From: Planctomycetaceae bacterium
Lineage (GTDB): Bacteria > Planctomycetota > Planctomycetia > Pirellulales > Pirellulaceae
NCBI GenBank assembly: GCA_021298315.1
Contig: JAJTFC010000011.1
Coordinates: 1 to 63,906 of the forward strand
Direction of reading: 5' to 3'
Length of the DNA: 63,906 nucleotides
Below are positions 37,023 through 48,363 of the stretch, piece after piece. Position numbers and translations under genes: made by a program. Below the pieces are notes generated by a model. The model did not search any database. It was not told the origin of the DNA and saw nothing but the letters and a program-made list of their open reading frames with translations. Position 1 is the stretch's first letter. Each line of letters begins with the position of its first letter.

Positions 37023-37329
37023 CGCAAAAAATGCTTGGGCCCATTGTGAATGCGAACGGTGTGTCATCAAAGTCCCCGAGGTTTTAGAGGGTGATTTCCT
37101 GGTAGGGCAAAACAGCCAGTTAAGCCGTTGCCCGCAAGTAGGATATCCAAGTAGTCTAGTCGGTTTGGATCGATAAACGGTTAGACACGTCGGTCAGAAG
37201 TCATGGAATTTCAACTTCGGAAACTCGATGAAACTCTCGTTGGAATCGAGGAATCGATGTTGGCGAAGTGGATTGCTTGTCTAAAATCCTCGGACTTCCC
37301 TCCGAGGCAACTTTCAGTACTTGTTCAAA
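37023..37329. other. Divergent promoter region (binding lipoprotein / tgt)
   Basis: About 307 bp with no gene supported. An open frame from 37203 overlaps tgt and has no recognisable product. No clear promoter hexamers or preQ1-type riboswitch were seen. Confidence 0.5.
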
Positions 37330-38490
37330 ATGGCTTATTCAACCAGTTTCCCGTTCCGAAAGATTGCACAAGATCCGACGACCTTGGCGCGACGAGGGGT
37401 CTTGAGGCTGGCTCATGGAGAGGTTCAAACGCCGGCATTTATGCCCGTAGGTACGCAAGCGACCGTCAAAGGGCTTTCGATCGATCAGATCGTATCGACC
37501 GGAGCTGACATTATTTTGGGGAATACTTATCACCTTGCGCTCCGGCCCGGGAGCGAGCTTATTGCCAAGCTTGGCGGGTTGCATCGGTTCATGGGCTGGG
37601 ATCGTCCGATCCTGACCGACAGTGGCGGTTTTCAAATCTTCTCGCTTGGTCAGATCACCAAGGTCACCGAGCAGGGGGCGACATTTAAATCCCATTTGGA
37701 TGGTTCGACCGTTGAGTTGCGGCCTGAGGATTCGGTTAGGATTCAGCAACAACTCGGCAGCGATATCGCCATGGTGCTTGATCATGTTGTGGCGTTACCA
37801 TCGAGCATTGAGCAGGTTCGCGATGCGATGGAAAGGTCGCTTAGGTGGGCACAGCGTTGTCAGGATTCAAGATCGCGAAGTGATCAAGCGATGTTTGGGA
37901 TCGTGCAAGGGGGATTGGAGCCCGAGTTGCGATGTCGGAGTGCCGAAGGGCTCCAACGCATTGGTTTTGATGGCTATGCGATTGGAGGCTTGAGTGTTGG
38001 GGAGCCACCTGAGCAGATGTATCGGATGCTCGATGTGGTTTGTCCTATTTTGCCAGCCGATCAGCCCCGGTATCTCATGGGTGTTGGACGTCCGATCGAT
38101 TTGGTTGAAGGGATCGCGCGGGGGGTCGACATGTTCGACTGCGTGATGCCGACTCGCAACGGTCGCAACGCCTTGGCCTTCACCGCCGATGGACCATTGA
38201 GGATGCGGAATCAATGCCATGCGGAGGATCCTAGGCCAATCGAAGAGGATTGTCCTTGCATCGCTTGTCGGCACAGCAGGGCTTATATTCGCCATTTGTT
38301 CCAAGCCGACGAGATGCTTGGGCCGACGTTGCTTTCGATTCACAATTTGACGTTTTACCAGCGCCTCATGAGTCAAGCACGTGAAGCGATCGAACAAGGG
38401 CGATTCGGGGCATTTTTGGAGCAGCAGCGTCGACGGCTTGCTGGAGATCCATCGGGCCGAGAATCCTTGCCCGTAGAACCTTCGGAATGA
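37330..38490 (+). CDS. tgt: tRNA-guanine transglycosylase
   Basis: 386 residues from ATG 37330 (MAYSTSFPF), three codons after a TTG that opens the longer frame. Family motifs are [27 protein letters not shown] with the nucleophile/base-recognition Asp, QGGLEPELR, and the Zn site [15 protein letters not shown]. It swaps G34 for preQ1 in tRNAs with GUN anticodons on the way to queuosine. It lies about 105 bp upstream of the DadA-like gene, same strand. Confidence 0.96.
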
Positions 38491-38595: not shown

Positions 38596-39849
38596 ATGTC
38601 CAAACGAGTGTTGATCATTGGAAACGGGATCATCGGACTATCGTCGGCCCTTGCGGCCCTTCGTCGAGGTTTTGATGTAACAGTCTTGGATCGCAATGCC
38701 CCGCACATCGAGAACTGCTCGTTTGGCAATTCGGGCATGATTGTCCCGAGCCACTTTGCACCTCTTGCACAGCCGGGGGTGATCTCCCAAGGGCTCCGAT
38801 GGATGCGTGACCCAGAGAGTCCTTTCTACGTCAAGCCCAGGCTCAGTTTGGATTTGATGAAATGGGGTGCGCGGTTTTACATGGCCACGAATGCGGATCA
38901 AGTTGCCGCTGGAAGCCAGCTCCTCAAGGAGTTGCATTTGGCATCTCGGGAGATGTATTGCAAGTGGCAAGAAGAGGGGATCGATTGTTCGCTCGCCACG
39001 CGCGGACTGCTGATGCTCTGTAACAGCCAGCACGGACTCCAAGAGGAGGCTCAGCTTGCCCAGAAGGCTCTTCAATTAGGTATACCGGCTTCGGTGCTAG
39101 ATCCTCAAGAGACGGCTGCATTGGATCCGAATATCACCATGAGCATTGCCGGAAGTGTTTACTATCCAAAGGACTGCCATTTGAATCCAACCCAACTGAT
39201 GCAATCTCTTAGGGATAAAGTCGGTTCGCTCGGTGCTAAGTTCGTTTACGGCAAACATGTGCTTGGCTGGCACGAGCAGTCAGGCAGTATCCGTGCGGTT
39301 CGAACCACCAGCGGAGATTATCAAGCCGATGAGTTTGTCTTGAGCACTGGAGTGTGGTCCGATGCGATGTCCAAACCGCTGGGGCTTAAGATCCCCATGC
39401 AACCTGGCAAAGGGTATTCCTTGACGCTGCCGGAGCCGGTGCAACTGCCCAAGATCTGTTCGATCTTGGTGGAGGCCAAGGTGGCCGTTACGCCTATCGG
39501 ATCGGCTCTGCGATTTGGAGGGACGATGCAACTCGGAGAACTCAACGAGTCGATCGACCCGAGACGAATCACAGGGATTCTAAAGAGTATTCCCAAGTAC
39601 ATGCCCAAGTTCGAGCCGTCTGATTTTGAGGGAATTGAGCCTTGGGTCGGCCTTCGGCCAGTCTCTCCAGACGGCTTGCCTTACATCGGTCGAACCAGCG
39701 GAATTCGCAATTTGGTGGTCGCCACAGGCCATGCGATGATGGGAGTGAGTTTAGGCCCGATCACCGGCGAAATGGTTGGTCAGATCCTCGCTGGAGAACC
39801 TACCGGGATCGATTTGCAATTGGCATCGGTCGATCGGTTTCGGGATTAG
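38596..39849 (+). CDS. DadA-like FAD-dependent amino-acid oxidase
   Basis: 417 residues. The N-terminal FAD motif is IIGNGIIGLSSALAALRRG, followed by NCSFGNSGMIVPSHFAPLAQPG as in DadA. The C-terminal GLRPVSPDGLPYIGRT and ATGHAMMGVSLGPITGEMV blocks are also typical of D-amino-acid dehydrogenase and D-hydroxyproline dehydrogenase relatives. It would deaminate a D-amino or imino acid, passing electrons to the respiratory chain. The gap to the epimerase gene is 6 bp, so it is cotranscribed with the sugar set, though a functional link is not obvious. Confidence 0.85.
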   Translation: MSKRVLIIGNGIIGLSSALAALRRGFDVTVLDRNAPHIENCSFGNSGMIVPSHFAPLAQPGVISQGLRWMRDPESPFYVKPRLSLDLMKWGARFYMATNADQVAAGSQLLKELHLASREMYCKWQEEGIDCSLATRGLLMLCNSQHGLQEEAQLAQKALQLGIPASVLDPQETAALDPNITMSIAGSVYYPKDCHLNPTQLMQSLRDKVGSLGAKFVYGKHVLGWHEQSGSIRAVRTTSGDYQADEFVLSTGVWSDAMSKPLGLKIPMQPGKGYSLTLPEPVQLPKICSILVEAKVAVTPIGSALRFGGTMQLGELNESIDPRRITGILKSIPKYMPKFEPSDFEGIEPWVGLRPVSPDGLPYIGRTSGIRNLVVATGHAMMGVSLGPITGEMVGQILAGEPTGIDLQLASVDRFRD

Positions 39850-39855
39850 TGGTCT

Positions 39856-40911
39856 ATGAAGGTACTCGTCACTGGATCCAGTGGGCTGATAGGTTCGACG
39901 GCAGTCAGGCACTGGGATTCCTTAGGCGCCGATGTCGTTGGAGTCGATAACGACATGCGGCGGGTGTTTTTTGGAGAGCAAGGCAGCACACGTTGGAATT
40001 TGGAGTTGCTGCGATCCCAGACACAGCGATTCGAGTCCTATCCGATCGACATTCGAGATCGAGAAGCGATCTTCGAATTGATTCGCAAGCATCGACCGGA
40101 ACTTGTGATCCACTGTGCAGCACAGCCTTCTCACGACAAAGCTAGGGAAATCCCGATTGTGGATTTTGAAGTCAACGCACTTGGGACGCTCAATATACTT
40201 GAGGGTGTTCGGCGGCATGCTGAGGATGCCGTGGTATGCCATATGAGCACCAATAAAGTTTACGGCGATGCACCCAACGAAGTGCCTTTGGTCGAACATG
40301 AGACTCGTTTCGATTACGCTCGACAAGAGGATTACCACGGGATCGACGAGACATGCCGTATCGATCGAACCTTGCACTCCATTTTTGGTGCTTCAAAAAC
40401 CGCTGGCGATGTGATGGCCCAAGAGTACGGCAAGTATTATGGACTCAAGGTTGGGGTTTTTCGTGGTGGTTGTTTGACCGGGCAGGCTCATTCAGGCGTC
40501 GAACTTCACGGTTTCTTGTCCTATTTGGTTCACGTGGCAATCCATCGAAAGCCCTACACGATTTATGGTTACAAGGGCAAGCAGGTGCGCGATCAGATCG
40601 ACAGCATGGATGTGATCCGGGCGCTTGAGGCTTTTGCATGTAAGCCTAGGCCGGGGGAGGTTTATAATTTGGGGGGCGGACGAACCAATTCGGCTTCGGT
40701 TATCGAGTGTATCGATCTGATCGAGAAGCTCAGTGGATATCGGATCGAGTATCGATTGAGCGATCAAAACCGCATCGGCGATCACATCTGTTACATCTCC
40801 GATTGCAGGAAGTTTCAAAGGGACTATCCCCAATGGAGCGTTGGGATTACGCTAGAGACGATTGTTGTGGGAATGATACAGTCCGCTCAGCGGAGTATTT
40901 CAGCGGAGTAA
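39856..40911 (+). CDS. NAD-dependent sugar epimerase, CDP-paratose 2-epimerase-like
   Basis: 351 residues of the extended short-chain dehydrogenase fold. The NAD motif is VLVTGSSGLIGSTAV. MSTNKVYGDAP is the catalytic Ser/Thr strand typical of CDP-paratose 2-epimerase (Tyv/RfbE) relatives. The usual YxxxK reads FGASK here, so the catalytic Tyr appears replaced by Phe. GYKGKQVRDQIDSMDV is the substrate loop. It is expected to epimerise or otherwise modify a nucleotide-bound sugar. It is first in a tight set with the NTase-like gene (19-bp gap) and the kinase/pyrophosphorylase fusion. Confidence 0.85.
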   Translation: MKVLVTGSSGLIGSTAVRHWDSLGADVVGVDNDMRRVFFGEQGSTRWNLELLRSQTQRFESYPIDIRDREAIFELIRKHRPELVIHCAAQPSHDKAREIPIVDFEVNALGTLNILEGVRRHAEDAVVCHMSTNKVYGDAPNEVPLVEHETRFDYARQEDYHGIDETCRIDRTLHSIFGASKTAGDVMAQEYGKYYGLKVGVFRGGCLTGQAHSGVELHGFLSYLVHVAIHRKPYTIYGYKGKQVRDQIDSMDVIRALEAFACKPRPGEVYNLGGGRTNSASVIECIDLIEKLSGYRIEYRLSDQNRIGDHICYISDCRKFQRDYPQWSVGITLETIVVGMIQSAQRSISAE

Positions 40912-40930
40912 TGGTGAGTAGATAATCGCA

Positions 40931-41773
40931 ATGATGAAGATAAGAAAAGCAGTCGTTACCGCAGCAGGGCCAGACCAGGGAGGCATGCTTTTGCAGAACT
41001 TGGTCGATCGGGATGGTCGGGAAAAGACGGTTATCGAGATGATTGTCGAAGAGATCGATTCGGCGGGAATCGACTCGATCGCGATCGTGATCAATCCTGA
41101 AACGAAGGACGCTTACCGGTCAGCCGCTGGAAATTACAAAGACCGGCTAACTTTTGTTTCTCAGGCTGCCCATGGGCCCGGTTACGGACAAGCCATCTTG
41201 AGCTGTCAGGATTATGTCGGTCAAGAACCTTTTCTCCACATGGTTGGAGATCACCTCTGTTTTTCAAAAGGTGCCAAAAGGTGCGCGGCCCAGCTCGTCG
41301 AGGTTGCTTCACAGCATGGATGCAGTATCTCGGCTGTACAAGCCACACGCGAATCTCAGCTCCCTTTTTTCGGAACGGTCGGAGGTGTTCGGTTGCCAGA
41401 GTTCGATCGGCTTTTCGAGATCAAGAGAGTCATTGAGAAACCGACTCCAACCATCGCTGAACAAGAGCTTCTGACGGCTGGGCTTCGGAGCGGAAACTAT
41501 CTTTGCTTTTTCGGGCTGCATGTTCTTATGCCCAGTATCTTCGGCTATCTGGCCGATGCGATTGCGCAGAAGAAAAGACCGATTCCATTGACAAGTGCTT
41601 TAGAAGCTACCTTGAGCCGCCAGCGGTACTTGGCCTACGAGATCGATGGATACAGGTACAACCTGGGCGTGAAGTTCGGGCTTTTGAATTCCCAGTTAGC
41701 CCTTGGATTATCCGGTGTCGACAGAGATCGAGTGCTGACCCAACTGATCGATGTTTTGAGTCTTCACCGATAG
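40931..41773 (+). CDS. GalU-like nucleotidyltransferase without the signature motif
   Basis: 280 residues. The fold of sugar-1-phosphate nucleotidyltransferases (GalU/RmlA) is readable: an N-terminal VVTAAG strand, VEEIDSAGIDSIAIVINPETK, then FLHMVGDHL at the metal-binding region and KRVIEKPTP. The glycine-rich GxGTRxxPxTK loop that holds the nucleotide is missing, replaced by GPDQGGMLLQNLVDRDGRE. It may be inactive, a partner for the next protein, or of altered chemistry. ATGs at 40931 and 40934 are adjacent. It is followed 20 bp later by the fusion gene. Confidence 0.75.
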   Translation: MMKIRKAVVTAAGPDQGGMLLQNLVDRDGREKTVIEMIVEEIDSAGIDSIAIVINPETKDAYRSAAGNYKDRLTFVSQAAHGPGYGQAILSCQDYVGQEPFLHMVGDHLCFSKGAKRCAAQLVEVASQHGCSISAVQATRESQLPFFGTVGGVRLPEFDRLFEIKRVIEKPTPTIAEQELLTAGLRSGNYLCFFGLHVLMPSIFGYLADAIAQKKRPIPLTSALEATLSRQRYLAYEIDGYRYNLGVKFGLLNSQLALGLSGVDRDRVLTQLIDVLSLHR

Positions 41774-41780
41774 ATCATCC

Positions 41781-41785
41781 AGGAG
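41781..41785 (+). promoter_or_regulatory. Shine-Dalgarno site that fixes a GTG start
   Basis: AGGAG lies 8 bases before GTG 41794. This supports GTG as the start of the fusion protein rather than a longer frame that overlaps the NTase-like gene by 270 bp. Confidence 0.7.
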
Positions 41786-41793
41786 CATTCATT

Positions 41794-44700
41794 GTGGCAA
41801 ACGCATCGCTTTCAGATCGTTGGATCGAAGCAATCACTTCATCGGATGACAACGTTCGCAACGAGTCGATCGAGTCGCTCAGTCATGGGCTGAGTGCTCC
41901 GGACTATTTGCAGGTCGCGTTGGACTTGGACCGATTCCGAAGAGGTGCAAAAAACCTTTACCATCTAGTAAGAGCGAACTTTTTAATCTCTTCGATCTAT
42001 CGCTACAGGTTGCCCGAGAAGCTCTCGGAATCCCAATCGGGGCTTTTGCCGCACGAGGCCTATGAACACATCCTCGAGCGTCGGTTTAGCGAGGCGATCG
42101 ATCTGCTTTTGAACTATCAAAAAGAGCATGGAACCAATCATGCCTATTGCAGCGCACTTGCGAAAGCCTACTACCAGCATGGTATCCAGACGCTGGCCGA
42201 CCAGGTTCGCCGGAGCGTCAAAACAGTACGTGGTAATCAGTGGATGTTTCGGATCGCCCATCCAGACGATCAGCCTCTGAGGATCCGAAAGGAACTCTTG
42301 CTCAGAGATCCCAAATCGCTCGATTGGCCGATCTTGCTCGAACGCACCTCGGTCCGCATGGATTTCACCCATAGCGGATGGAGCGACATCTTTTTTCTAG
42401 GTATGGACTTTCCCGAAGGGGCTCGGGTGATCAACGCGTCGGTCAACTTGGGTGTCTATGGAAGGGACCCTGAGCCCAAGCCGCCTGTAGAAGCTTATTT
42501 GCGAGTGATCGATAAGCCCGTGCTTCGATTGGTTAGCACGGATCTAGGGGTCGATGCGGAATTGACCAAGATCGACGAAGTTTTCGATTTTGCGAAAGAT
42601 TATCTTGGCCTGCTCAAGGCCGCTTGTATCGCCTCTGGATTGGTTCCGCCTGGGATGGAGGGTTGCGGCAGGCCAATGTCAGAACTTTTGGCGGTCTTGA
42701 TGCAAAACGCAGGATCGCAAGCTTCTGGGCTTGGCCTAGAGATCGTCAGCAAGGTTAACGATATCCCCAAGGGTTCGCGATTGGCTGTTTCGACCAATCT
42801 CCTGGGTTGCCTGATCGGAGTTTTGATGAGGGCTACAGGCCAAGTCAAAGACATTCAAGGTGGCTTGGATGTGTTAGATCAACGCTTGATCACCGCCCGC
42901 GCTATCCTGGGTGAATGGTTGGGTGGATCTGGCGGCGGTTGGCAAGACTCGGGTGGAATATGGCAAGGTATCAAGAGAATCGAAGGCCAACTGGCTAGCC
43001 AAGAGGATCCTGAGTATGGGATCAGTCGTGGTCGCTTACTTCCCAAACACACGCTCTTGACCAAAGATGCCTTTCCCGAATCCTCTCGCCGAGCTCTCGA
43101 GGAGAGTTTGATTCTCATTTATGGTGGAATGGCTCAGAACGTTGGCCCAATCTTGGAGATGGTTACGGAGAAGTATCTCACAAGGGGAGAAAAGGAATGG
43201 GACGCACGCCAAGAGACGATTGAAATCTACCAGCAGATCATCGACGCGCTGTGCGCCGGAGACATCCGCAAACTTGCTTCGTTGACGACACGAAACTTTG
43301 TCGGTCCACTCCAAACGATCATCCCTTGGTGCACCAATCGCTTCACTGAAGCGATTATCGAACAATGCGCTAAGAAATGGGGCTCGCAGTACTGGGGGTT
43401 CCTGATGCTCGGTGGGATGTCTGGTGGTGGCATGGGATTTTTCTTCGATCCTGCGATCCGTAAAGAAGCACGCGATTGGCTATTGGAGACGCTTGTTGCA
43501 ACCAAACGATCCATGCAAGATCGCTTGCCCTTTGCGATGGATCCTGTGGTCTATGAATTCCAGATCAACGACCGAGGGTCATGGGCGGAATTGCTTGAGG
43601 CCGATTTTGCAAGGATGCCCGAGAGCTATTATGCGATACTTGCGCCAAGACTTGTTCGGGGAAACATCAGAGATCTCAGCGAGCAGTCCAAGAGAGATCT
43701 AGAGAGGCTCAACCAAGCTTGCTCGGAGGATCTCCATCGAGCCGGACGGTTGCTTCAGAGGATCTTGCCCCAGGGCAATTCCAAAGTGGATCATCAACAG
43801 AGTCTGCAATCGAAGTTGCAGGAAAATGGTTTTGATATCCAAGAGCATCAGCAGATCCAATCAGAAATTCTCTCGGGTCGAATCAGCCTTGCTACAAACC
43901 GTTTGGCGATCAATGTCGATATCGCCGACGTCGAGCCCGCAGACTATATCGAACTGCGAGACTCTCGAACCCAAGTTAAAAGCGAAGATTGCTCGGAGGC
44001 AATACGCGCCATTCGCGACTCGCAAGTCGGCGTGATCACCTTGGCCGCCGGTGTTGGCTCTCGATGGACCACCGGAGCGGGTGTTGTCAAAGGACTTCAT
44101 CCGTTTTGTCGCTTTCAAGGCAAGCATCGAAGTTTTCTGGAAGTCCATCTGGCAAAGTCGACCAAGACATGCCATGAGTTCAACGCCTCGATACCCCATA
44201 TCATCGCCACAGGATATCTTACCCACACCCCGATCCAAGAATTCCTCGAGACCAATAATCACTTTTCTTATCCATCGAAAGTTTATCTTTCACGCGGGAT
44301 GTCTGTCGGACTAAGAACCATTCCCACGGTGCGAGATTTGGTCTTTCACTGGGAGGAATCTTCGCATCAAGTCCTCGACGAGCAGCAGCAGAAGGTTCGG
44401 CAAAGCGCCCAAGCCTCTTTGCAGAAATGGGCCCACAGCGCGGGCGAAGCTAGCGACTATACCGATAACCTTCCCGAGCAATGCATGCATCCGGTCGGGC
44501 ATTGGTATGAATTCCCAAGCATGCTCAGAAATGGAACCCTTCGACAAGTACTCCAAGATTTCCCAAAACTGAAATATTTGCTTCTTCATAACATCGATTC
44601 TGTCGGAACCAATATCGATCCGGTTTGCCTAGAGCACCATATGCGATCCGGCGCTGCTTTGAGTTTCGAAGTCATCGGTAGAAGGATCGAGGATCGAGGC

Positions 44701-45156
44701 GGGGGCTTGGCCCGGGTCGATGGAAAAGTCCGACTCCTCGAGGGCATGGCAATGCCCACAGAGAAAGCTGAGTTCAAGCTTACGTTCTACAATACCCTTA
44801 CGACCTGGATCGATATCGATCGAGTCCTAGCGGCCTTTGGACTAGACCGAAAGAGTTTGGAAAGTCCAGCCCTGGTCGATTCGGCGGTGCGAAAGATGGC
44901 CGCAAGGCTACCGACCTATTTGACGATTAAAGATGTCAAAAAACGCTGGGGATTGGGCCAAGAAGACGTCTATCCAGTGGCCCAGTTCGAAAAACTCTGG
45001 GGGGACATGAGCAGCATCAGCGAAGTTGCATGTCGTTTTATGGCGGTCGATTCCAAGCGGGGTCAGCAGCTTAAAGATCCCGCCCAATTGGATGGATGGT
45101 TGAGAGACGGATCAGCAGACTTCGTCGAAAAACTATGCCATTGGAATAACAGTTGA
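41794..45156 (+). CDS. Fucokinase-like GHMP kinase fused to a UDP-sugar-type pyrophosphorylase
   Basis: 1120 residues from GTG 41794. Residues 1-~180 are an unrecognised helical region. Residues ~185-600 carry GHMP-kinase motifs of the L-fucokinase/HddA type: SVRMDFTHSGWSD (~187-199), IPKGSRLAVSTN (~324-335), SGGGWQDSGG (379-388) and GGMSGGGMGF (540-549). Residues ~745-1110 are a nucleotidyltransferase with LAAGVGSRW (750-758) and NIDSVGTNIDP (933-943), like UDPGP-family pyrophosphorylases. Inferred reactions are sugar plus ATP to sugar-1-phosphate, then sugar-1-phosphate plus NTP to NDP-sugar. Bacteroides FKP has the same two activities in the reverse order. It directly follows the epimerase and NTase-like genes, so the three probably act on one sugar. 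Confidence 0.78.
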   Translation: MANASLSDRWIEAITSSDDNVRNESIESLSHGLSAPDYLQVALDLDRFRRGAKNLYHLVRANFLISSIYRYRLPEKLSESQSGLLPHEAYEHILERRFSEAIDLLLNYQKEHGTNHAYCSALAKAYYQHGIQTLADQVRRSVKTVRGNQWMFRIAHPDDQPLRIRKELLLRDPKSLDWPILLERTSVRMDFTHSGWSDIFFLGMDFPEGARVINASVNLGVYGRDPEPKPPVEAYLRVIDKPVLRLVSTDLGVDAELTKIDEVFDFAKDYLGLLKAACIASGLVPPGMEGCGRPMSELLAVLMQNAGSQASGLGLEIVSKVNDIPKGSRLAVSTNLLGCLIGVLMRATGQVKDIQGGLDVLDQRLITARAILGEWLGGSGGGWQDSGGIWQGIKRIEGQLASQEDPEYGISRGRLLPKHTLLTKDAFPESSRRALEESLILIYGGMAQNVGPILEMVTEKYLTRGEKEWDARQETIEIYQQIIDALCAGDIRKLASLTTRNFVGPLQTIIPWCTNRFTEAIIEQCAKKWGSQYWGFLMLGGMSGGGMGFFFDPAIRKEARDWLLETLVATKRSMQDRLPFAMDPVVYEFQINDRGSWAELLEADFARMPESYYAILAPRLVRGNIRDLSEQSKRDLERLNQACSEDLHRAGRLLQRILPQGNSKVDHQQSLQSKLQENGFDIQEHQQIQSEILSGRISLATNRLAINVDIADVEPADYIELRDSRTQVKSEDCSEAIRAIRDSQVGVITLAAGVGSRWTTGAGVVKGLHPFCRFQGKHRSFLEVHLAKSTKTCHEFNASIPHIIATGYLTHTPIQEFLETNNHFSYPSKVYLSRGMSVGLRTIPTVRDLVFHWEESSHQVLDEQQQKVRQSAQASLQKWAHSAGEASDYTDNLPEQCMHPVGHWYEFPSMLRNGTLRQVLQDFPKLKYLLLHNIDSVGTNIDPVCLEHHMRSGAALSFEVIGRRIEDRGGGLARVDGKVRLLEGMAMPTEKAEFKLTFYNTLTTWIDIDRVLAAFGLDRKSLESPALVDSAVRKMAARLPTYLTIKDVKKRWGLGQEDVYPVAQFEKLWGDMSSISEVACRFMAVDSKRGQQLKDPAQLDGWLRDGSADFVEKLCHWNNS

Positions 45157-45183: not shown

Positions 45184-45199
45184 GACGTTCATGAACGTC
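45184..45199. repeat. Perfect 16-bp palindrome before the glycine riboswitch
   Basis: GACGTTCATGAACGTC is a complete palindrome immediately before the first aptamer. It may be an operator or an end hairpin of the upstream transcript. Confidence 0.6.
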
Positions 45200-45396
45200 T
45201 GGCGCGAGAGTGCCCGCAAGGGTCGCCGAAGGTGTAAAGTGTCCCACAAACACTCAGGCAAAAGGACCGCCGGACCGAAACAGAATCTCTGGAGAGCGAT
45301 TGCCGCTTAAGTGCGAAGCAATCCACCGAAGGGGCAAGCCGCAGAACGTATGCTCGAAGCGGCGAATCTCTCAGGTTAATTGGACAGAGGGGCAAG
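45198..45396 (+). promoter_or_regulatory. Tandem glycine riboswitch
   Basis: Two consecutive glycine-aptamer-like units precede gcvP. The first (45200-45275) has GCGCGAGAG, CGCCGAAGG and CACTCAGG with AAAGGACCG. The second (45286-45391) has TCTGGAGAG, CACCGAAGGGGCAA, TCTCAGG and GGACAGAGG. The core pieces CCGAAGG...CTCAGG...GGACAGAG are the recognisable conserved ones. Glycine binding would normally turn on the cleavage system genes downstream. Confidence 0.88.
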
Positions 45397-45489: not shown

Positions 45490-48363
45490 ATGAATTCAAC
45501 GCAAAGCTCCGCCCCCTTCATCGCGCGCCACATCGGTCCGCGAGAACATGAAATCCAAGACATTCTCGGTAAGCTTGGATTCTCAAGCCTCGACGAACTC
45601 AGCCAGCAAGTGATCCCCAAGGGGATCTTGGATCTGAGCCCATTGAAGATTGATCAGGGGGTCTCCGAGGAAGTGGCCTTGGAGGAACTTAGGCAGATCG
45701 CTAGCAAGAATCGCGTCGTGAAAACGTGGATTGGAGCTGGCTACTACAACGCGCATCTGCCAAAAGTGCTCCAGCGAAACGTGCTCGAAAATCCAGCTTG
45801 GTATACCGCCTATACCCCCTACCAGCCCGAGATCTCCCAAGGACGTTTGGAGGTCTTGTTCTACTATCAGACGATCGTTAGCGAGCTAACCGGATTGGAA
45901 ATCGCGAACGCTTCGCTTCTTGACGAAGCGACTGCGGCGGCCGAAGCCATGGCGTTTGCTTTGCGAAATTCCAAGTCTGGCAAACGGTTTTTGATTTCCA
46001 AGTGGTGCCATCCGCAGACGCTCGATGTCGTGCGGACACGGGCTGAGGCTCTGGACGTACAAGTCGTACAGTTCGATGAATCCGTAGGTCCTGACTCTTG
46101 GGAGGACGTCTTTGGTGTTTTGGCGCAATACCCATGCACCGATGGACGCGTTGTATGTCCCAAGGACTGGATAGCGACAGCCAAGAAGCATTCCGCGTTG
46201 GTTATCCTTGCGACGGACTTGCTAGCGCTGATGCTCTTGCCAAGCCCGGGTTCTCTTGGGGCTGATGTGGCTATTGGATCCTCGCAGCGCTTCGGTATTC
46301 CGCTGGGATTTGGGGGGCCTCACGCGGCCTTCTTCGCAACGCGCGATGCGCTCAAACGAACCATTCCTGGACGACTCGTCGGACAGTCGATTGATCGGCA
46401 CGGCAACCCGGCTTATCGACTTGCCTTGCAAACCCGCGAACAACATATTCGAAGGGAAAAAGCGACCTCGAACATCTGTACGGCCCAGGCCCTGCTGGCG
46501 ATCTTGGCCACCTTGTATGCCTGCTACCACGGTCCGGATGGACTCCGCGAAATTGCGCTAAGAACCCATCGCAAAACATCTAGGCTCTACCGAGCCCTCA
46601 AGGCCGCTGGGATCAAGATCCGAAGCGAGAGGTTCTTCGATACCCTGGCTCTCGAAGTCCCGGGCAAGGCAGATGCTTTCATGCAAGCTGCCTTGCAAGA
46701 AGGAATGAACCTTCGACGCATCGACCAGGACACCCTGGGAATCAGTTTCGACGAGACAACCACCGATGAGGATGTGGCGAAGGTTGCCAAGGTGTTTGGT
46801 GCAGTCAAGCTCGATAGCCTCGATACGAGCATGCTCGACGAAGCTCAGTTTCGAAGCGATGCGATCCTCACCCAAGACGTTTTCCATCGCTACCGCAGCG
46901 AGACTGAGATGATGCGGTATGTGCGATCCCTTAGCGATAAGGATATTGCACTCGATCGAGCGATGATCCCACTTGGCTCTTGCACGATGAAACTCAACGC
47001 GGCCAGTGAGCTCACTCCGGTGACTTGGCCCGAGTTTAATTCGATCCACCCGCTGGCTCCAGCAGACCAGTGCGAAGGCTACCGAATCATGATCGAGCAA
47101 CTCGAAGCCATGCTTTGCGAAGCGACTGGTTACGATGAGATCTCCTTGCAACCCAATGCGGGTTCTCAAGGTGAATATGCCGGACTCCTAGCGATCATGC
47201 AGTACCACCAGTCCCGAGGCCAAGGGGACAGAAACATTTGCTTAATACCAAGTTCAGCACACGGCACCAACCCGGCCAGCGCTCAAATGGCCAACATGCA
47301 AGTCGTGGTGGTTGCTTGCGACGCGCAAGGCAATGTCGACCTGAATGATTTGGATGCGAAAATTCAGCAGTATGGCTCGAAGATCGCCGCAATCATGATC
47401 ACCTACCCATCGACCCACGGTGTCTTTGAGGAGGGGGTTACGGCGATCTGCCAAAAGGTGCATGCAGTGGGTGGCCAAGTCTACATTGACGGGGCAAACC
47501 TCAATGCCCTGGTAGGTGTCGCAAGGCCCGGTAAGTTCGGAGGGGATGTTTCCCATCTGAATTTGCACAAGACCTTTTGTATTCCTCACGGGGGTGGAGG
47601 ACCTGGGGTCGGTCCTGTTGCCGTCAAAAAGCACTTGGCCCCGTTTCTTCCTCGCGATGGCGTCAATAGCTCACGACGCGGACCGATGGTCTCTGCCGCA
47701 GCCTTTGGCTCAGCAAGTATTCTGCCGATCTCTTGGATGTACATCCGAATGATGGGGGCCCAGGGGCTCAAGAGAGCAACCCAAGTAGCCATCCTCAGCG
47801 CAAACTATGTCGCTTGGAGGCTCAAGGACTATTATCCGATCCTCTATACCGGCAATCGAGGGCTGATCGCTCATGAGTGCATCATCGATACAAGGCTCAT
47901 GGATCGCGAAGCGCACATCGGGGTCGATGATATCGCCAAACGTTTGATCGATTATGGTTTTCATGCCCCGACGATGTCCTTCCCAGTCGCAGGTACACTC
48001 ATGATCGAACCGACCGAAAGCGAATCGCTACAGGAACTCGATCGGTTCTGCCGCGCGATGATCTTGATCCACGGCGAATACCAAAAGGTTCGATCGGGGG
48101 TTTGGGATCCGAGCAACAACCCGCTTAAGAACGCTCCGCATACGCTCAAGGACGTGTTATCCGAAGCGTCCATGGGCTACACCCGCGAGACGGCCGTGTG
48201 CCCAGATCCTCAGTCGGGAAACCAAGTCAAGTACTGGCCTGCTGTGGCTCGGATTGACAATGTCTACGGCGATCGCAATTTGGTCTGCGCTTGCCCTCCG
48301 ATGTCCAACTACGAATCCTCTCCAAGCCCGGTCTTAGGAAGCTCGAAAAATCCAGCGAATTGA
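45490..48363 (+). CDS. gcvP: Glycine dehydrogenase (decarboxylating), P protein
   Basis: 957 residues, the single-chain form with both halves of the P protein. It starts with [14 protein letters not shown] and contains GSCTMKLNA and the PLP site in [17 protein letters not shown], with Lys as Schiff-base residue. It decarboxylates glycine and passes aminomethyl to GcvH. The T and H proteins are not in this window, so gcvP is separate from the rest of the system. It lies about 95 bp past the glycine riboswitch and is presumably controlled by it. Confidence 0.97.

Follow-up and report, generated by a model that had tools for sequence, protein, structure and literature searches.

In the planctomycete DNA analysed here (63,906 nucleotides, hereafter the window) and in its relatives, the conserved unit consists of two genes, one encoding a GalU-like nucleotidyltransferase and the other a fusion of a fucokinase-type GHMP kinase with a UDPGP-type nucleotidyltransferase. 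In the fusion, a kinase of the fucokinase type appears to have become linked to a pyrophosphorylase for a second time, separately from FKP; record titles place it in seven phyla. We propose that the pair forms an old unit of two genes whose role is to activate a fucose-like sugar, a reading on which our judgement is evenly balanced.

A preliminary description of the same DNA had seen a three-gene nucleotide-sugar operon made of a CDP-paratose-2-epimerase-like gene (hereafter the SDR), a second nucleotidyltransferase-like gene and the fusion. Its open reading frames proved correct when the coordinates were read again, as did the gaps of 19 bp between the SDR and the GalU-like gene and of 20 bp between the latter and the fusion. 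The three genes are thus adjacent, but the run is not limited to them: an FAD-dependent oxidoreductase gene ends 6 bp before the SDR starts, and tgt lies further upstream on the same strand. The features of the locus, in positions of the window, are as follows:

37321-38490, + strand: tgt (the name is our reading; profile match in relative L052)
38596-39849, + strand: FAD-dependent oxidoreductase of the DAO family, D-amino-acid dehydrogenase-like (Pfam DAO, E 2.5e-67), outside the unit
39856-40911, + strand: extended SDR of the epimerase/dehydratase family (Pfam Epimerase, E 4.5e-35)
40931-41773, + strand: GalU-like nucleotidyltransferase whose signature loop is altered (TIGR01099 at E 3.7e-23, under its cut-off)
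41794-45156, + strand: fusion gene, 1120 aa (profiles and AlphaFold model)
41794-42309, + strand: N-terminal helical part of the fusion, residues 1-172, without a recognised family
42331-43713, + strand: GHMP kinase part of the fusion, about residues 180-640, end estimated (PRK13412, 9iip, Foldseek)
42763-42795, + strand: altered kinase phosphate-loop motif IPKGSRLAVST, residues 324-334 (FKP alignment, column counts in 77/77 rows)
43996-45147, + strand: UDPGP-type nucleotidyltransferase part of the fusion, about residues 735-1118, limits estimated (PF01704, UGP/UAP folds)
45193-45279, + strand: glycine riboswitch (56.3 bits to Rfam RF00504), after the fusion and before gcvP
45490-48363, + strand: gcvP (the name is our reading)

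The start codon of the fusion is GTG, preceded by what appears by eye to be a ribosome-binding-like AGGAG. The pair sits directly upstream of the glycine riboswitch.

Domains and conserved residues of the two proteins

The kinase-first, nucleotidyltransferase-second order that the preliminary description had read from its motifs was borne out by profile searches. The NCBIfam FKP model PRK13412 (NF009948) matches residues 180-546 of the fusion (E 3.1e-16; 58-60 bits, below its cut-off of 721) and the Pfam UDPGP family PF01704 matches residues 892-1014 (E 1.9e-12; 47.1 bits against a gathering threshold of 22). PF01704 was detected at E <= 0.01 in all 18 members of one alignment set, and above gathering in 5/5 members scanned singly (27.4-49.5 bits), four of them outside that set. 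Every motif quoted was found: SVRMDFTHSGWSD at residues 186-198, SGGGWQDSGG at 379-388, GGMSGGGMGF at 540-549, LAAGVGSRW at 750-758 and NIDSVGTNIDP at 933-943. The closest solved structures by sequence are UDP-glucose pyrophosphorylases and FKP.

An AlphaFold model of the fusion was built from 77 sequences (pLDDT 86.6, pTM 0.88). A Foldseek search with this model ranked full FKP (9iit) first, followed by 9iip, the fucokinase part of FKP, with a TM of 0.82 by target length; among the 50 matches listed were also WcbL (0.82-0.84) and UGP and UAP structures (0.54-0.62 by target length). The predicted structure agrees with the profiles and recovers both the GHMP fold and the UDPGP-type fold that had been proposed for the two parts. 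A scan of GTDB with two peptide patterns, in which genes may count twice, yielded at least 539 stretches encoding a relative of the fusion, and the named loci used below are the best 80 of these, those closest to the query. In 79 of these 80 (best 80 of at least 539) the homologous stretch has no stop codon or N. The PRK13412 and UDPGP matches, the open translations and the motif residues kept in 77 rows indicate that the fusion is not due to chance. Longer members were seen in Thermoflexus (L109:5834-9310, 1159 aa matched) and Chthoniobacter (L111:8001-11429, 1143 aa), and their length suggests that they probably carry insertions.

The same description had placed the two domains in the reverse of the FKP order. 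That order stands, but the fusion is, by its sequence, not a rearranged FKP: PF07959 was undetected at E <= 0.01 in 18/18 members plus four further members, with the FKP L168 as positive control. In a profile comparison, positions 20-419 of the fusion aligned to positions 475-827 of canonical FKP (E 1.3e-13), an alignment that looks convincing in its kinase part and weak in its helical part. This resemblance of the first half of the fusion to the C-terminal half of FKP hints at a separate fusion, not a swapped FKP. The kinase part is 28% identical to the canonical FKP of a relative (E 5e-17); tblastn against three other kinase loci of relatives, which we guess to be HddA, gave one match at E 0.17 and left two unmatched. 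Across 26 members, the best Pfam match to residues 1-172 had E 0.0025, and the influenza haemagglutinin stalk helices that came up as possible kin of this part (E 0.04-0.9 only) were taken as chance. With regard to uridine specificity, a profile made from the opening half of the UDPGP part hit no solved structure at E <= 1, and the residues ahead of the GH motif gave a poor alignment with one paralogue (L030), UAP-like by our reading.

Residues of the fusion were mapped onto FKP by HMMER alignment, with BfFKP numbering in brackets, and counted over an alignment of 77 rows (the window plus 76 homologues). R188 (R592), W196 (W599), D198 (D601), S333 (S719), E374 (E751), G382 (G759), Q384 (Q761) and D385 (D762) are kept in 77/77 rows. 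The list of catalytic kinase residues of FKP, including R592-D762, was drawn from a structure study (PMC11982464); R597, D606 and D767 of TxFKP, equivalent to R592, D601 and D762, are described as nearly invariant in the main text of an FKP survey (PMC12732313). Five positions are changed in 77/77 rows, namely I199 (T602), R329 (G715), A331 (G717), V332 (T718) and T334 (S720), and the phosphate loop GLGTSS of FKP reads RLAVST in every row. It is here that the model is least sure (residues 327-330, pLDDT < 50). According to the structure study, T602 of FKP contacts the C3-OH of fucose and the loop 712-720 binds triphosphate (PMC11982464); with both changed, the fusion may use ATP and contact its sugar in a different way. 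The glycine-rich loop and T602 are residues of BfFKP, which the papers do not claim as defining FKP. In the UDPGP part, G753, R757, W758, T759, K766, G902, H903, N933, D935 and G938 are invariant in the 77 rows, and G755 and S756 are kept in 74/77.

The model of the GalU-like protein (pLDDT 92.3) has the GalU fold, with YngB as best match. Its score against TIGR01099 is far below the cut-off (82.4 versus 326.8 bits). D107, H108, E169-K170-P171 and R242 are invariant in 62/62 rows, and position 244 is Asn in 43, Asp in 18 and Pro in one of them. We take D107 to be the metal Asp, and likewise assume a role for the EKP motif in this protein. The 62-row alignment and the alignment to YngB show that this protein lacks the GalU signature GxGTRxLPxTKxxPKE and has a QxxLPLQxLVDRDG-type loop without the signature lysines in its place. 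Judged from these residues, it may be an enzyme in altered form or else a subunit with a binding role.

Genes that accompany the fusion

The fusion is present in 25 of 60 genomes, the window's included, five of them holding it as pieces at contig ends. The GalU-like partner occurs in exactly the same 25 genomes and in 0/35 of the others (Fisher p 2e-17, kinship ignored). To this gene the preliminary description had given no special weight, and it is the regular partner, found in 25/25 genomes with the fusion. The remaining 35 genomes have neither gene intact. One of them, G021, contains only broken pieces (G021:C29:9951-11196, fusion fragments with a stop and gaps) and no match to the partner, which together point to a copy that is probably decaying.

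In the named loci (best 80 of at least 539), the partner lies within 300 bp upstream of the fusion in 67, in some as end pieces, and 304-1210 bp upstream in four, giving 71/80 within about 1.2 kb; three loci are cut by a contig end and six lack the partner locally. In all six of the latter the partner was found on another contig of the same genome. It was also found in the genomes of two of the three cut loci, while the genome of the third, L087, gave no partner match. No other neighbour is common to more than six of these loci (best 80 of at least 539). Nearby ORFs formed 167 clusters with one representative each, of which 106 were scanned; no Pfam family appeared in more than two of the 106, and housekeeping genes are frequent among those shown. 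A single case, in the genome of L084 (titled Armatimonadetes), has a gene for an alpha-L-arabinofuranosidase C-terminal domain protein (L181:5930-7450, - strand) divergent from the separated partner gene.

The place of the SDR gene deserves closer attention, because the preliminary description had made it a pathway step, with the SDR epimerising an NDP-sugar that the other two proteins produce. The tight 19-20 bp spacing in the window is as that pathway would have it. The SDR adjoins the pair in 7/25 genomes with the fusion (the window's, G003, G004, G006, G011, G018 and G025; some contigs are cut) and in two named loci, L052 and L071 (best 80 of at least 539), taken to be the loci of G006 and G003. 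These counts come close to the case named beforehand as telling against the pathway, a fusion never near the epimerase, although the seven genomes do show the adjacency. The closest copies, 82-85% identical, are in genomes without partner and fusion (G009, G012, G013, G017 and G019). Four of these five have tgt, the FAD gene, the SDR and gcvP in the window's order minus the pair, and the G012 contig runs out after the SDR. Within the genus, an SDR match at E 1e-60 was obtained in 15/21 genomes with the fusion, hence missing in six with the pair, and in 6/6 without an intact pair, the sixth being G021 (52% identity); at 64% identity or more, the counts were 10/21 versus 5/6. Over all 60 genomes, the SDR was commoner with the fusion (18/25 versus 12/35 at E 1e-60, p 0.008, kinship ignored), a positive association that we read as both being common in this genus. 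The protein matches general epimerase/dehydratase models, with all 25 of the matches listed scoring under their NCBIfam cut-offs, and its residue 177 is Phe, with FGASK replacing YxxxK. Phe takes the position of this catalytic Tyr in 14/14 SDR loci read (18 were examined, taking in the window's own and one genome twice). We consider the three-gene pathway very improbable; the SDR is probably a bystander, a neighbour in one lineage and no required step.

Distribution and candidate functions

Of 294 genomes sampled from the window's phylum, the window's own among them, 17 have the fusion; the figures are 13/145 for the phylum of L107 (titled Verrucomicrobiales), counting the centre, and 1/121 for that of L096 (titled Anaerolineae), where the one is the centre itself. 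By record titles, which can err and most of which belong to MAGs, the 77 rows of the tree comprise 39 Planctomycetota, 20 Verrucomicrobiota, 11 Chloroflexota, two Armatimonadota, one each of Acidobacteriota, Lentisphaerota and Kiritimatiellota, and two unassigned (the window and L110). The closest named homologues (best 80 of at least 539) are Planctomycetota MAGs, several titled Pirellula. A quick tree of the 77 fusions clusters by phylum, with eight label changes (minimum 6, shuffled mean 32.1) and some mixing among Chloroflexota, Armatimonadota and Acidobacteriota. Given this clustering, mostly vertical descent with loss fits better, and the family looks old and often lost. A horizontal cassette, considered because the location differs between clades, is spoken against by the same clustering.

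Under the proposed two-gene unit, the fusion would have both kinase and nucleotidyltransferase activity, as its residues suggest, so that a free sugar would be phosphorylated and then made into an NDP-sugar. The fucokinase-like domain would act on the anomeric OH of L-fucose, L-galactose, D-arabinose or a relative, and the UDPGP-type domain would join the resulting sugar-1-phosphate to a nucleotide with release of pyrophosphate. The GalU-like protein would be needed either as a partner subunit in physical contact with the fusion or for a further nucleotidyl transfer, whose substrate would be the product or glucose-1-phosphate. A fucose-like sugar is favoured since the fucose-type contacts W196, D198, Q384 and D385 are kept. 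Two markers considered as clues to the substrate showed no link to the fusion. GH29, the only fucosidase family searched, occurs in 4/25 genomes with the fusion and 10/35 without it, and was not found in the window's genome; GMD matched in 53/60 genomes, the window's included, so salvage would be unneeded there for GDP-fucose.

The kept fucose-binding equivalents of W599, D601, Q761 and D762, together with FKP being the best structural match of the model, would also suit an FKP in reverse that takes free L-fucose through fucose-1-phosphate to GDP-fucose for fucosylation. This we hold unlikely: PF07959 is missing in all the members searched yet detected in the canonical FKP of G033, the equivalent of T602 is Ile in 77/77 rows, GH29 has no link to the fusion, and GMD is found in most relatives and in the window's genome. 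A catabolic route, in which the fusion makes an NDP-sugar, an epimerase encoded elsewhere acts on it and the GalU-like partner runs backwards to glucose-1-phosphate, would explain two nucleotidyltransferases together without a glycosyltransferase. It is consistent with the regular co-occurrence of the two genes and with the many housekeeping genes among the nameable neighbours, but no epimerase is conserved with the pair and the signature loop of the GalU-like protein is altered, and we give this route little credence.

It is also doubtful that the kinase domain has ceased to use ATP, its loop holding another donor or a regulatory ligand while the UDPGP part and the partner account for the main activity. 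The change from GLGTSS to RLAVST in all 77 rows and the low model certainty at residues 327-330 are what such a loss would lead one to expect; on the other hand, the equivalents of the general base D762, of S719 and E751, and of the sugar contacts W599, D601 and Q761 are kept in every row. A bolder reading, which seems to us distinctly improbable, would make the fusion a distinct bifunctional sugar-activating class, independent of the FKP fusion and working only when complexed with its GalU-like partner, its kinase loop rebuilt around an invariant Arg for a non-ATP phosphoryl donor, conceivably the pyrophosphate set free by its own nucleotidyltransferase step. If active, the fusion would let one enzyme make NDP-sugars by a new route, and would allow ideas on why steps of this kind become fused to be tested. 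The pairing with the GalU-like gene persists even where the genes lie apart, and the pathway is testable, as cultured Rhodopirellula and Stieleria strains carry both genes.

Comparison with known systems

Like the fusion, HldE has its kinase first and its nucleotidyltransferase second, but its folds, a PfkB kinase and a nucleotidyltransferase of the cytidylyltransferase type, are not known to be related to those of the fusion. Zebrafish DrGKUP likewise joins a GHMP 1-kinase to a nucleotidyltransferase; unlike the fusion, it has the nucleotidyltransferase first, and it combines a glucuronokinase with a bacterial-type nucleotidyltransferase (PMC3938481). No description of the architecture of the fusion appeared among the literature matches listed, whose scope lies largely outside subscription journals.

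The GalU-like partner shares with GalU and YngB the fold, Asp107, the EKP motif and the Asn/Asp244 region, and differs from them in the loss of TKxxPKE and in its TIGR01099 score far below cut-off. With the UDPGP family (UGP, UAP), the second part of the fusion has in common the GxGSR + Lys, GH and N-x-D motifs and the fold; unlike that family, it lies C-terminal to a kinase and, compared with L030, is longer by about 40 residues ahead of the GH motif.

In FKP the pyrophosphorylase is N-terminal and the kinase C-terminal, and a single fusion event is favoured in the main text of the 2025 survey, which requires PF07959, COG2605 and PRK13412 together for membership and in which the terms 'planctomycet', 'UDPGP' and 'domain architecture' are absent (PMC12732313). 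By this three-model rule the fusion, having no PF07959, falls outside FKP. Only one canonical FKP in the 60 genomes scores above the PRK13412 cut-off (L168, G033:C474:856-3744), and G033 carries both this gene and a kinase-first fusion. The fusion resembles FKP in having a GHMP kinase of the fucokinase type, with which it shares the Arg, Trp, Asp, Gln and Asp residues of FKP, and in holding kinase and nucleotidyltransferase in one chain. It differs in the reversed order, in a nucleotidyltransferase of the PF01704 and not the PF07959 family, in the changed phosphate loop and T602 position, and in the presence of a GalU-like partner.
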